This document shows positions 2,915 to 44,027 of a stretch of 64,000 bases of DNA, in pieces. Source of the DNA: Candidatus Altimarinota bacterium (GTDB lineage Bacteria > Patescibacteriota > Gracilibacteria > JAUYGZ01); contig JARGOK010000001.1 of NCBI GenBank assembly GCA_029233985.1, positions 867,096-931,095 on the forward strand, given 5' to 3'. Positions within the stretch are counted from its first letter, which is position 1; every line of letters starts with the position of its first letter. The notes under the pieces are model-generated. The model had not been told where the DNA came from and ran no database searches. It was given only the letters and a program-made list of their open reading frames with translations. A program made the translations under genes and the position numbers.

Positions 2915-3532
2915 ATGGCTCGTTACACTGGACCAAAAGCTCGTCTCTGTCGTCGTGAAGGTATTGATCTTTTCGGACGACCTAAGTATGCAAAAATTCT
3001 TGAGCGTCGTGGAGTAGGAGTAGGAATGCATCTTGGAGGTCGCCCTGGAAAGAAATCAGGATACGCTATTCAGCTTCGAGAAAAACAGAAGCTACGGTTT
3101 ATGTTCGTTCTTTCTGAAAAGCAGTTCAAGAAATATTTTGACAAAGCGAATAGAATGAAGGGTGTTACGGGAGATAATCTCATGCAAGTACTCGAAACCC
3201 GTCTTGATAACGCAATATACCGTGCTGGTTTTGGTTTGACTCGTTTTCAGTCGCGACAAATGGCTACTCATGGTCATTTTGAAGTAAACGGACGACGTGT
3301 TGATGTTCCTTCATATAACCTCAGAGTAGGTGATGTCTTTCAGGTTCGATCAAAAACAAAGAATTCAAAATTGTTTGCTAACGTTCTCGAAGAAAACAAA
3401 AATTACAAGCCATCTCGATGGTTAAAAGTGAATACTAAAGAGTTATCAGCAGAAGTAGTAGCTATTCCGACAAGTGATGATTTTGAACAGATCATTGATA
3501 CACAAAAAATTATCGAGTATTATTCTCGGTAA
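2915..3532 (+). CDS. rpsD: ribosomal protein S4
   Basis: Primary 16S rRNA binding protein that nucleates small-subunit assembly. The N-terminus is MARYTGPKARLCRREG, and the S4 RNA-binding domain (LETRLDNAIYRAGFGLTRFQSRQMATHGHFEVNGR) is clear around residues 90-135. The zinc CxxC pairs of some S4 proteins are absent; only C12 remains. At 205 residues it is of normal length. It precedes rpoA by 49 bases. Confidence 0.97.
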   Translation: MARYTGPKARLCRREGIDLFGRPKYAKILERRGVGVGMHLGGRPGKKSGYAIQLREKQKLRFMFVLSEKQFKKYFDKANRMKGVTGDNLMQVLETRLDNAIYRAGFGLTRFQSRQMATHGHFEVNGRRVDVPSYNLRVGDVFQVRSKTKNSKLFANVLEENKNYKPSRWLKVNTKELSAEVVAIPTSDDFEQIIDTQKIIEYYSR

Positions 3533-23146: not shown

Positions 23147-23149
23147 GGT

Positions 23150-23184
23150 GAGTTGGGAGTTAGGAGTCTGTAGTTAGGAGTTTA
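23150..23184 (-). repeat. five tandem heptads (GAGTTAG type) in the rplR-rpsE spacer
   Basis: Read on the plus strand, the 35 bases divide exactly into five 7-base units of consensus GAGTTRG. They fill nearly the whole intergenic spacer between rplR and rpsE. Confidence 0.75.
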
Positions 23185-24814: not shown

Positions 24815-24817
24815 ATC

Positions 24818-24838
24818 GAGTGAGGAGTTAGGAGTTAA
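24818..24838 (-). repeat. three tandem heptads in the rplE-rpsN spacer
   Basis: Three adjacent 7-base units of the GAGTTAG type on the plus strand, in the 37-base gap between the two genes. Confidence 0.65.
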
Positions 24839-27987: not shown

Positions 27988-27990
27988 GGA

Positions 27991-28018
27991 GAGTGTGGAG
28001 TTAGGAGTAGGGAACTAG
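27991..28018 (-). repeat. four tandem heptads in the rplV-rpsC spacer
   Basis: Four adjacent 7-base units of the GAGTTAG type on the plus strand occupy nearly all of the 34-base gap. Confidence 0.7.
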
Positions 28019-36354: not shown

Positions 36355-36444
36355 GGAAATGAGTAGGTGCAAGGTGTGCTTATTGTATTCGAAATGTATG
36401 ACTGCTGTGGTATTATGGCTTTCTGTAAGGCTTTTTTTGTCGCT

Positions 36445-38151
36445 ATGGATTTTTCAAAAATAGATGTCACGACTCACCAAAAAATTGCAAGAATGATTGT
36501 CTTGGAAGCGATTGATCGTACCTTTAAGAATCGTGATCATTTTCAGAAGTTTCGAAATAAGATTATTAAACGTGAGAAAGGAGTGATTTTTCATAATTTG
36601 TATTTTGTAAAGGCTTATGAGGATTTGGTAAAGGAGGGAAAAATCGAAGAAAATGAGGACTTTGCCGGATTGATAAAGAAACGTTCGGTACGGACCATGA
36701 GTGGTGTGGCTCCTGTGACAGTCATGACCAAGCCTTGGCCTTGTCCAGGGAAATGTACGTATTGTCCGACTGATGTACGGATGCCAAAGAGTTATTTGCC
36801 AAGCCAGCCTGCTGCACAAAGAGGATTTCGACAGCGTTTTGATCCGTATGCTCAGGTGTATGTTCGCCTGAAGGCTCTTGAGATGACTGGACATAAGGTC
36901 TCAAAAGTAGAATTGCGGATTTTAGGAGGGACCTGGTCTTCGTACAAGAAACAGTATCGGACATGGTTTGTGAAGAGGTGTTTGCAAGCGATGAATGAGT
37001 ATGGTCGAGTGAGGAGTGAAGAGTTTGGAGTTGGGAGTAGAGAAAGAACGGTAACAAATAGAATTGAGAGTCGATATGGTGTGGATAAAGTAAATACTTT
37101 GATGGTGAAAAGTATTGGAGGTCCGAGTGTGTGTTTTGATGAAGTAGTGAAGGAGAATGAGACCGCGAAAGTGCGGTGTATTGGGGTGAATATCGAAACT
37201 CGGTCAGACCATATTGATGTGAAAGAAATCCAGCATCTTCGTCGCTTAGGTGTTACGAAGATCGAAATGGGAGTGCAGACGACTGATGACAAAGTGCAAG
37301 AGCTCACACGTAGAGGTCATGATCTTCAATCTGTAAAGGATGCGACTGTGCTAATGAAAGATGCAGGGTTTAAACTGAGTTTTCATATGATGCCAAACCT
37401 TCCGGGGTCTACAATAGAACTAGATAAACGAATGATTGGTGAACTGTTTTCTGACTCTGCGTATCAACCTGATTATCTCAAAATTTATCCTTGTGTCGTT
37501 ATTCCTCGTACTTCATTGGCTGTGCAGTATCGCAGAGGGGATTATCATCCTTATGATGATGAGACACTTTTTGATATTTTGTATGAAAATATGAAAGATA
37601 TACCAGAGTGGTGTCGTGTAGATAGAGTGGCGCGAGATATTCCGGCAGATGATATCGAGGCAGGGTTTAAAATCTCCAATATTCGACAGTTTCTCGAACA
37701 AAAACTTGAGAAAGAAGGGATTCCTTGTCGTGATATTCGAACAAGAGAGATTCAAAATCTTTCGTATGAAATGTCTGATGTGGAGCTTGTAGAGAGAGTG
37801 TATGCTTCAAGTGGCGGAAAGGAGTTTTTTTTGAGCTATGAAGATATTCAACAAGATCGGCTCATTGCTCTTTTGAGGCTGCGTTTTCCTGGAAAGACAT
37901 TTTTGAAAGAATTATCTGGTGCGGCACTTATACGTGAAGTCCATGTATATGGTCAGCAGACGGCTGTTGGAAAATCTGGGAAAACAAAACAGCATGTGGG
38001 TTGGGGCACAAAGCTGATGAAAGATGCGGAAGATTTGGCAAAGAAGGCTGGGTACAAAAAGCTTGCTGTTATTGCAGGAATTGGAACTCGCGAATACTAC
38101 AAAAAATTTGGGTACCGACTGGAGGGGACGTATATGCTCAAAAATATTTAG
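36445..38151 (+). CDS. elp3: Elp3-type tRNA wobble-uridine carboxymethyltransferase (radical SAM + GNAT)
   Basis: Elp3 starts cm5U34 synthesis in tRNA using SAM radical chemistry and acetyl-CoA. The start at ATG 36445 (MDFSKIDVTTHQKIA) gives 568 residues. The radical SAM motif CPGKCTYCP lies near residue 100, GVNIETRSDHI and MGVQTTDDKV further on, and a GNAT domain occupies the last ~100 residues (GTKLMKDAEDLAKKAGYKKL, GTREYYKKFGYRL). Residues ~188-201 (RVRSEEFGVGSRER) are encoded by a run of DNA heptads and look inserted. The gene overlaps the convergent neighbour by four bases. Confidence 0.92.
   Translation: MDFSKIDVTTHQKIARMIVLEAIDRTFKNRDHFQKFRNKIIKREKGVIFHNLYFVKAYEDLVKEGKIEENEDFAGLIKKRSVRTMSGVAPVTVMTKPWPCPGKCTYCPTDVRMPKSYLPSQPAAQRGFRQRFDPYAQVYVRLKALEMTGHKVSKVELRILGGTWSSYKKQYRTWFVKRCLQAMNEYGRVRSEEFGVGSRERTVTNRIESRYGVDKVNTLMVKSIGGPSVCFDEVVKENETAKVRCIGVNIETRSDHIDVKEIQHLRRLGVTKIEMGVQTTDDKVQELTRRGHDLQSVKDATVLMKDAGFKLSFHMMPNLPGSTIELDKRMIGELFSDSAYQPDYLKIYPCVVIPRTSLAVQYRRGDYHPYDDETLFDILYENMKDIPEWCRVDRVARDIPADDIEAGFKISNIRQFLEQKLEKEGIPCRDIRTREIQNLSYEMSDVELVERVYASSGGKEFFLSYEDIQQDRLIALLRLRFPGKTFLKELSGAALIREVHVYGQQTAVGKSGKTKQHVGWGTKLMKDAEDLAKKAGYKKLAVIAGIGTREYYKKFGYRLEGTYMLKNI
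37007..37041 (+). repeat. five tandem heptads inside elp3
   Basis: The 35 bases divide into five adjacent 7-base units of consensus GAGTKRG, the same type as in the ribosomal-operon spacers. A sixth degraded unit would make 42 bases, exactly 14 codons, keeping the frame open. Confidence 0.7.
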
Positions 38152-41897: not shown

Positions 41898-44027
41898 CTA
41901 GTTGACGGCTGAACGAGCCACTCCAGTCACAGGAAGTCCGTTGAACTTGCTGGTTTGATTCATGATCGAAACATCATTATCTATGAGTGCTAATGAGACG
42001 TTTTGAGTGAGTGACATTTGAAAAGAAGCATTCTGTCCTGGAGTTACACTAGTGACGTTGCAGTAGACGGTGTACACTCCACCTCCTCCTTGGAGTCTTT
42101 TCCCTGGAAGAAAATCATTTTCACTAAACCGGACAAATGCTGTGTTGGCAAGGTCTTGAGCAGCAAGATTTGCAAATTGAGAAGCTGCTCCATTGTTTGC
42201 AGCATTGAACGGACCGACTTTAGTAGCGAGAATACTGTTTGATACATCTCTGAGCTCACATTGGTCTATTTTTACAGCATTACTCGTCTTTGTGGTTTCG
42301 AACTCAATGAATGTATTGTTGAGGGCATCTCCGACTTCTACAGTCCCTACTCCTGTTTTATTCATTTTGAATTTGAACATGTCTTGGAGACTTGCTGAAA
42401 GGAGATCTGAAGAAATCGATCCACCAGATGCAAAGCTTACAGCTGCTTGTTGGATGATGAAATCATTTCCATTTTCTATTTTTTGTGTAGAAGGGTTCAC
42501 TTCTTGGTTTGATGCTGTAGTAATGCTTCCTTGCTGATTTGTTTGGAAAGCATTTTCTGCTAGTTGAATCCGAAATGTTTGACCAGCTGTTGCTCCTCCT
42601 GTGATGACTTGATTGGCATATACTTGGATACTGACGACATATGGGATGTCTTTTTTTAAGGTGTGTTGGATGTTTTCAAAGAAAATTTTATCGTCTGAAA
42701 TATTTGTAGATGTACTATGTACTACTCCATCTATAATGACTTCAGCTTTAGAAATCATTTTGCTCGCCTTATCTGAACTTGAACCCATGATAACATCAAC
42801 AACAAAATCATTGAGCGTTGTGTCGCTTGTTTCACTTTCTATTTTGAATATTAGAGGGTTTACCTTGTTTGTGTTGGCTGAGTTTTGTGCGATATATGAT
42901 GTTCTTTCTTGTGACTGAAGAGATAATTTGATCTCATTGTATTGTGCCGTAGAAGTGGACCCAGTGTTGGTCGAAGTAGACCCATTGTTGTTTGAGGTCG
43001 AGGTGTTTGATGTGGATCCTGTGTTGTTTGAAGTGGTATTACTTCCGGTTGATCCAGTGTTGCTTGAGCTTGTATTGTTTGAGTTTGAAGTATTGGATGA
43101 TGATCCGTTACTATTTGAACTTGAGTTGTTTGAGCTTGTATTGCTGGATGTTGACCCGCTGTTACTTGAATTTGAAGTATTGGATGATGATCCAGTATTG
43201 TTTGAGCTGGTGTTGTTTGATGAAGAATTAGAAGTATTTGAGCTCGAATTGGTGGATGATGAAGTGTTGTTGCTTGAGTTTGAAGTATTGGATGATGATC
43301 CAGTGTTACTTGAATTTGAAGTGTTGGATGTTGACCCCGTAGTATTGTTTGATTGGAATGGGGTATTTTTTACGTATTGGTAAATCGCTACCGCTACTTC
43401 ATTTCGAGTGAGTTTTGTTTCTGGACGAAGGTTTGATGTTCGGTGAGGGAAAATGTTGTGTTTTTCTGCCGCACCAGCGTATTTGTAAAACCAACTGTTT
43501 TTGTGCCCATCGAGATCTTGGTAGTTGTTTGGAATCCAAGTTTTAAAATTGAATGTGAGAGCGATCATTTTGATGAACTCAGCTGTGAGCACTTGGTTTG
43601 CAGGACGAAATGTACCATCTGAATATCCATTGATAATTCCTAAGTCTGAAGCTTTATTGACGTACTTTGTGTACCATTCATTTTCAATCACATCCCTGAA
43701 AATATTGCTTGTGCTGAGACTACTGACTTCTACACCCTTTGCGAGAAGAAGAAACTTTGCAGCTTCTGCACGGTTTACAGGACGGCTTCCCTTGAATTCT
43801 CCATCAGGGAAACCTCCAATGATACCTCTGTAAAAAAGTTCTGCAGCCGCTCTACCAGCGATGCTATTGATGTTTGTATCGCTAAAAGGATTGTCTTCTG
43901 GGTTGAAATTAACGTTTACTTCTTGTTCGAATCCTGCGAAGTTGCTTGAAGCAAGGACAGGACTGAGTGCTGATGTGAGCATCAGTACTCCTACTGAAAG
44001 ACTCGTGAGTTTTTTTGTAAATGACAT
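41898..44027 (-). CDS. SLH-domain surface protein with Ser/Asn/Thr linker
   Basis: A 709-residue secreted protein with an N-terminal signal peptide (cut near ALSPVLA) and three SLH repeats at about 45-220 (GGFPDGEFKGSRPVNRAEAAKF, INGYSDGTFRPANQVLTAEFIKM, LRPETKLTRNEVAVAIYQY). SLH repeats anchor proteins to the cell wall. Residues ~225-365 are almost only Ser, Asn, Thr and Gly, a flexible stalk. The C-terminal domain ends in GLPVTGVARSAVN, similar to the end of the third SLH protein. It is the last of three SLH genes in a row on this strand. Confidence 0.88.
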   Translation of the reverse strand: MSFTKKLTSLSVGVLMLTSALSPVLASSNFAGFEQEVNVNFNPEDNPFSDTNINSIAGRAAAELFYRGIIGGFPDGEFKGSRPVNRAEAAKFLLLAKGVEVSSLSTSNIFRDVIENEWYTKYVNKASDLGIINGYSDGTFRPANQVLTAEFIKMIALTFNFKTWIPNNYQDLDGHKNSWFYKYAGAAEKHNIFPHRTSNLRPETKLTRNEVAVAIYQYVKNTPFQSNNTTGSTSNTSNSSNTGSSSNTSNSSNNTSSSTNSSSNTSNSSSNNTSSNNTGSSSNTSNSSNSGSTSSNTSSNNSSSNSNGSSSNTSNSNNTSSSNTGSTGSNTTSNNTGSTSNTSTSNNNGSTSTNTGSTSTAQYNEIKLSLQSQERTSYIAQNSANTNKVNPLIFKIESETSDTTLNDFVVDVIMGSSSDKASKMISKAEVIIDGVVHSTSTNISDDKIFFENIQHTLKKDIPYVVSIQVYANQVITGGATAGQTFRIQLAENAFQTNQQGSITTASNQEVNPSTQKIENGNDFIIQQAAVSFASGGSISSDLLSASLQDMFKFKMNKTGVGTVEVGDALNNTFIEFETTKTSNAVKIDQCELRDVSNSILATKVGPFNAANNGAASQFANLAAQDLANTAFVRFSENDFLPGKRLQGGGGVYTVYCNVTSVTPGQNASFQMSLTQNVSLALIDNDVSIMNQTSKFNGLPVTGVARSAVN

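Follow-up and report, generated by a model that had tools for sequence, protein, structure and literature searches.

Background

The closest described system to the arrays reported here is that of the GGGNATC repeats of Xanthomonas and Nostoc, dispersed G-rich heptamers which form tandem 7-nt units with one variable position (PMC4692102). They are located antisense just upstream of genes or in sense orientation at stop codons, and their position is conserved between related species while the length of the array differs; some form inverted pairs. In Xanthomonas, 89-93% of them are intergenic, with an even distribution between the strands and no preference for the leading or lagging strand, and their GGG tracts form G-quadruplexes (PMC4692102). 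A second system are the TAACTGA heptamers of marine Beggiatoaceae, Cyanobacteria and Bacteroidetes, a single fixed heptamer which is mainly intergenic and in many cases directly upstream of start codons (PMC4679880). The best-documented case of repeat DNA lying in frame within conserved proteins comes from Rickettsia. In PMC2229807, which cites Ogata et al. 2000, the Rickettsia palindromic elements are described as stem-loops of 105-146 bp with terminal inverted repeats, which are fused in frame into numerous genes for conserved proteins and also occur between genes.

Here we describe an array of G-rich heptads within the elp3 gene of a Candidatus Altimarinota bacterium and the repeat family, GGAGTNN, to which it belongs. 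Like the Rickettsia elements, GGAGTNN arrays lie in frame within conserved protein genes; unlike them, they consist of short tandem heptads without a palindrome. With the TAACTGA repeats they share the heptamer array, the position of many arrays 5' of start codons and a patchy distribution across phyla, but the sequence is a different one. The family can be filed with the heptameric simple-sequence repeats, from which it departs in two respects tested here, its richness in coding regions and its strand polarity; its unexplained trait is the combination of a fixed core and a random spacer. The Patescibacteria (CPR) would add an independent case of in-frame repeat DNA, with a simpler element, with many essential hosts (PriA, UvrC, IleS, GuaA, NrdA and Elp3) and with matched sites in three genera, and would offer a natural experiment on the entry of repeats into genes. 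With a probability of roughly 55%, we consider the elp3 array to be a copy of a lineage-specific G-rich repeat, (GGAGTNN)n, which grew as DNA and was kept where it was tolerated.

The heptad array within elp3

The window, that is the whole stretch of 64,000 nt analysed here, contains an elp3 gene (Table 1). Its product matches the TIGR01211 ELP3 profile with 547.5 bits (cut-off 350) and the Elp3 structure PDB 6iaz with E=7.6e-122. Besides the ATG start, an upstream in-frame GTG at 36367 is possible. The array reads GAGTGAG, GAGTGAA, GAGTTTG, GAGTTGG and GAGTAGA, followed by a degraded GAAAGAA, and encodes residues 188-201 (R188-R201, RVRSEEFGVGSRER; numbered from the ATG). The original prediction of five tandem heptads and a degraded sixth inside elp3 proved exact in its coordinates, and the peptide of about 14 residues assigned to them agrees with the direct reading. 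The consensus proposed at that time, GAGTKRG, is too narrow: it is found exactly in units 1 and 4 only, and GAGTNNN fits all five. On the genome-wide scale, the family is best written GGAGTNN.

Over the five units, 23 of 25 positions match the GGAGT core. When the whole window was subjected to 200 dinucleotide shuffles and both strands were scored, the core score did not exceed 20, and a score of 23 was reached in 0.35% of synonymous-codon shuffles in which the Elp3 protein was held fixed. A chance origin of the elp3 array is excluded. The second, equal-best site of the window is the array at 23149, and arrays at S5/L18, near L5 and at S3/L22 confirm that the repeat type in elp3 is the one seen in the ribosomal spacers.

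Table 1. Coordinates of the elp3 gene, its linker and the heptad arrays in the window
Feature	Position	Strand	Basis
elp3 CDS (tRNA U34 radical SAM/GNAT enzyme), ATG start	36445..38151	+	ORF list, TIGR01211, PDB 6iaz
Heptad array in elp3, sense	37007..37048	+	direct reading, shuffle tests, genome-wide family
Variable Elp3 linker holding the array, ~residues 187-229, between AMNEY and NETAK	37003..37131	+	
Array of five units in the S5/L18 spacer, immediately 5' of the ribosomal protein S5 gene and antisense to it	23149..23181	+	
Array of three units near the L5 gene, immediately 5' of a start codon and antisense to the gene	24817..24835	+	
Array of three to four units in the S3/L22 spacer, immediately 5' of the S3 gene and antisense to it	27990..28015	+	

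Genome-wide family and distribution

Genomes were searched with the motif GGAGTNNGGAGTNNGGAGT at no more than one mismatch, and the reversed motif of identical composition served as control. The genome of the window (G000) has 45 such places against 0 for the control. The family sample comprises three genomes, the other two being the sister genera G001 (48 matches against 3) and G002 (119 against 2). Within the 60 class relatives searched, a more distant genome (G007) has 23 matches against 0, and almost all others have zero or few. A four-unit pattern was found in 15 of 380 phylum genomes, mostly a few times each, and the family is missing from most of these 380 Patescibacteria genomes. The elp3 repeat is in frame and lineage-specific. 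Outside the phylum, the GGAGT core with a 7-nt period is, among the matches listed, frequent in Cyanobacteria and also present in Bacteroidota, Chloroflexota, Planctomycetota and others. In 204 kb scanned without bias for other cores of period 7, the power was too low to place GGAGT first.

The survey of arrays allowed two mismatches and gave 82 matches against 8 for the control, so chance may account for as many as about 10% of the weakest arrays surveyed. G000 has about 38 GGAGTNN arrays. For the comparisons below, the array loci of G000, G001 and G002 were fetched and gene calls were based on ORFs.

The Elp3 linker across relatives

In solved Elp3 structures the segment from AMNE to NETAK is short and the linker almost absent, compared to about 43 residues in the Elp3 of the window. 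Across the class the length of this linker is very variable. An in-frame TGA was seen in some of the class relatives compared, which suggests the class Gracilibacteria. Heptads are found in the same loop of G000, G001 and G002, genera whose Elp3 proteins are about 75% identical. The G001 linker contains GAGTTCG, GAGTTCG, CAGTTTG and GAGTTCC, and that of G002 has two heptad runs flanking a CCCGCCACGGCGGG hairpin. The nearest outgroups, G027 and G036, have an Elp3 that is 66% identical over the protein, and no heptads were detected in these two or in the other class members aligned. Because the heptads are family-wide and the outgroup linker is of equal length without them, the array can be assigned to a permissive linker.

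Two observations had been named in advance as evidence against a repeat that entered the gene: a heptad peptide conserved in distant Elp3 proteins, and the peptide without the DNA repeat in relatives. The peptide is absent from the other aligned class relatives and from the solved structures, and G001 and G002 have both peptide and repeat. The idea of a clean insertion of six heptads, or 14 codons, has to be given up. From anchor to anchor the linker measures 219 nt in G000, 207 nt in G001, 267 nt in G002 and 219 nt in G027/G036, and neither 21 nor 7 divides the differences of 12, 48 and 60 nt. The elp3 array is probably a neutral passenger from the family ancestor which has since been edited in an already variable linker.

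Host genes and shared sites

Elp3 is one of many conserved hosts. In G000, family searches identified PBP1C, IleS, Fmt, Pth and UvrC (three arrays), an RmlA-like protein carries an array at its C-terminus, and alignment with orthologues of known identity revealed PriA (three arrays), GuaA and EpmA as further hosts. Hosts in G001 are AroC, tRNA CCA nucleotidyltransferase, HflX, PriA, GuaA, NrdA, RsmE and MutY; those in G002 are PriA, UvrC, EpmA, RsmE and Elp3.

Many positions recur between genera. A PriA site just before the Walker A motif is common to G000 and G001 and another, after LLGSATPS, to G000 and G002; two UvrC sites are common to G000 and G002, the GuaA site to G000 and G001 and the RsmE site to G001 and G002. 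The EpmA site occurs in all three genera, with a GCAGT variant in G001. Heptads are absent from those outgroup orthologues of PriA, UvrC, GuaA and EpmA that were available. At UvrC site 3, G000 is longer than G001 by exactly 21 nt, which equals three heptads. Such shared sites point to old inheritance, in which case the arrays would have a common ancestry, or possibly to permissive hot spots.

Since 7 equals 1 modulo 3, all three frames are read within an array, and each strand therefore encodes one repeating heptapeptide (about VRSSEFG in sense and about ELRTPNS or ELQTPNS in antisense orientation) with most frames open. Accordingly, sense arrays translate like VRSSEFGVGS and antisense arrays like TPNSELQTPNS. 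These peptides are unrelated, and only the DNA motif is common to both. As both coding directions are used, the shared object is DNA, neither peptide nor mRNA, which makes for a clean DNA-level argument. A role in the mRNA, whether as SD-like GGAG or as a site for CsrA or cold-shock proteins, cannot apply to both array orientations, and a role of the peptide was rejected on the same ground. For annotation this is a warning that translated repeats can turn up in predicted proteins as odd peptides, for example SSEFGVGS or TPNSELQ.

Two genes contain a pair of arrays in opposite orientation, PriA of G002 (L163:2883-2908 and 2982-3049) and PBP1C of G000 (L120:2966-2998 and 3039-3064). In the PriA pair the NN order is TG-GA-TC-TT in both arrays, which suggests an inverted copy. 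A separate observation concerns the IleS ORF of G000 (L121:4-2880, minus strand; C3 about 730000-732900), where residues 570-743 match a histidine phosphatase (CobC/ribazole phosphatase-like). The match sits between the two IleS parts, so that this aminoacyl-tRNA synthetase carries an inserted domain.

Fixed core and random spacer

Core statistics were taken from units not used for detection. Each core position is kept at 71-100% in G000, G001 and G002. In the 98 interior units of G002, mismatches at core positions 1-4 number 1, 0, 1 and 2, that is 4 in 392 GGAG positions, and T is replaced 10 times. The spacer behaves differently: adjacent NN are identical in 9 of 77 cases in G000 (10.1 expected) and in 12 of 98 in G002 (14.6 expected), which is about chance. 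They are partly homogenised in G001 (27 of 64; 16.8 expected). In other phyla, arrays have the same core and period, but the NN are homogenised as slippage predicts; among the matches listed, cyanobacterial and others, 423 of 596 adjacent NN are identical where 99 are expected. Identity at a distance of two units is in weak excess (12 of 44 in G000, 5.9 expected; 18 of 78 in G002, 12.1 expected), a hint of 14-nt duplications in these two genomes.

Plain slippage fits the other phyla and in part G001, but not G000 or G002, where neighbouring NN are not alike as they would be in a slippage microsatellite; pure slippage was rejected for these two. With NN at chance and the core kept, slippage is insufficient, and either a constraint on GGAG or a low-fidelity extension must be added. 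The near-invariant core with its random spacer is a signature for which models of repeat growth have to account. Of the active expansion proposed in the original prediction, nothing is visible in G000, where neighbouring NN differ, but near-perfect GGAGTTA runs do occur in the sister genera, in G001 and at a contig end of G002.

Placement and strand polarity

Of the 38 arrays in G000, 24 are inside ORFs, which include many conserved genes of known identity, and a depletion in coding regions was not found. Within genes, 18 arrays are antisense and 6 sense. A further 11 lie directly 5' of starts, all antisense, and the remaining 3, all sense, at stops. GGAGTNN resembles GGGNATC in the dispersal of its tandem 7-nt units over many loci, in its orientation at starts and stops, in having sites common to related species at which the length differs, and in the occurrence of some inverted pairs. 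It differs from the intergenic GGGNATC in that most arrays are inside genes. Unlike GGGNATC with its four GGG tracts, the core here is GGAG, and a third G is present only where NN ends in G (4 of 24 in G000, 22 of 65 in G002).

A further difference to GGGNATC is the strand polarity. GGAGT is on the G-rich strand in all 27 arrays where |GC skew| is at least 0.1 and in 34 of 38 overall, independent of gene direction. On contig C5, all 22 arrays are on the minus strand and their host genes run in both directions. This placement on the G-rich strand, whichever way the gene is read, argues for a DNA-level element that is tolerated by proteins. In the first part of contig C3 (0-720 kb; G000:C3:1-720000), where GC skew is near zero, array density is five-fold lower than elsewhere, with 0.7 per 100 kb compared to 3.5-3.6 in the skewed rest; this may reflect a rearranged replichore or another cause.

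Known polar words such as Chi and KOPS are unusually skewed. The single GGAGT word is skewed 2.7-fold, within the range of other words of composition 3G1A1T (1.4-6.1), and this lack of unusual skew speaks against a word of the Chi or KOPS kind. A skewed composition could in itself be enough to favour the G-rich strand for seeding, and polarity by itself is therefore no proof of a process linked to the replication fork.

Possible origin of the arrays and alternatives

In the reading we prefer, that of a lineage-specific repeat grown as DNA, the arrays would arise and grow probably via tandem duplication linked to replication, with the GGAG(T) core serving as repeated microhomology and with growth on the G-rich (leading-sense) chromosome strand. 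They would survive only where added DNA is tolerated, that is just before starts, at stops and in those parts of housekeeping proteins that form loops or linkers, and within genes only variants free of frameshifts and stops would persist.

A doubtful alternative is that the GGAG(T) core at 7-nt spacing is selected as a DNA site, with the G-rich strand as the one that is read, whether at the fork or on the chromosome; the arrays would then be landing pads with multiple sites and NN a free spacer. The near-invariance of GGAG beside random NN in G002 is in line with this, as are the polarity that tracks GC skew and not transcription, the DNA motif as sole common feature of sense and antisense genic arrays, and the maintenance of the same sites in genera whose Elp3 proteins are about 75% identical. 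Against it stand the ordinary skew of single GGAGT words, the lack of a candidate binding protein and the different sets of sites between genera. A process of the family or a selected DNA function might write or keep GGAG on the G-rich strand every 7 nt, with a random spacer dinucleotide and right through essential genes. We regard this as unlikely; if true, the family would be a replication-polar 5+2 degenerate repeat and not a slippage microsatellite.

It is also rather unlikely that the arrays were seeded locally and independently from a G-rich background, with orientation and density following the supply of GGAG-like seeds in skewed DNA. The low density in the skewless part of C3 would be explained in this way. 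At UvrC site 2, G001 (L461) has a CAACCAA-type heptad where G000 and G002 have GGAGTNN arrays, as if any heptad were accepted; a similar run is present in L151. However, the core is the same everywhere, the reversed motif of equal composition is nearly absent and outgroup genomes are without arrays.

The original prediction also suggested that the element is mobile, which is unproven: no transposase linked to the family, no target duplications and no constant termini were seen, and common terminal inverted repeats were not found by eye in the flanks of the G000 arrays. A transposition-like spread by REP/RAYT or a palindromic element, with the heptads as part or target, is very unlikely. It could draw on the arrays of G001 that abut GTAGAGACGCATAGCTATGCGTCT-type palindromes and on the CCCGCCACGGCGGGCAGGC hairpin with flanking heptads that EpmA and Elp3 of G002 share. 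On the other hand, most G000 arrays are without a palindrome, and the heptads are shared between genera while the hairpins differ. REP/RAYT systems combine a 5' GTAG palindrome with a Y1 transposase, which is not the case for the GGAGTNN family; a REP/RAYT origin was rejected as the Y1 transposase (Y1_Tnp) is missing from both palindrome-bearing genomes, G001 and G002, and occurs once in G000. Finally, a selected function of the heptad peptide in Elp3 and further proteins is highly improbable, even though arrays recur in a matching loop of all three genera, given that one DNA motif yields VRSSEFG or ELQTPNS by direction, both of which are used, and that the peptide is missing from all other Elp3 examined.

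Further observations

The palindromes GTAGAGACGCATAGCTATGCGTCTGTAC and GGTAGAGACGTTTTG..CAAAACGTCTGTAC directly adjoin heptad arrays of G001 at L144, L147, L153 and L162. In G002, the CCCGCCACGGCGGGCAGGC hairpin flanked by heptads is common to EpmA, Elp3 and other loci (L164, L165, L168 and L172) and is also found within coding sequence. A consistent association of palindromes and heptads was looked for in other phyla and not found. Within the window, positions 43058-43334 contain a longer tandem array with periods of 36, 51 and 108 nt (TRF), possibly coding repeats.
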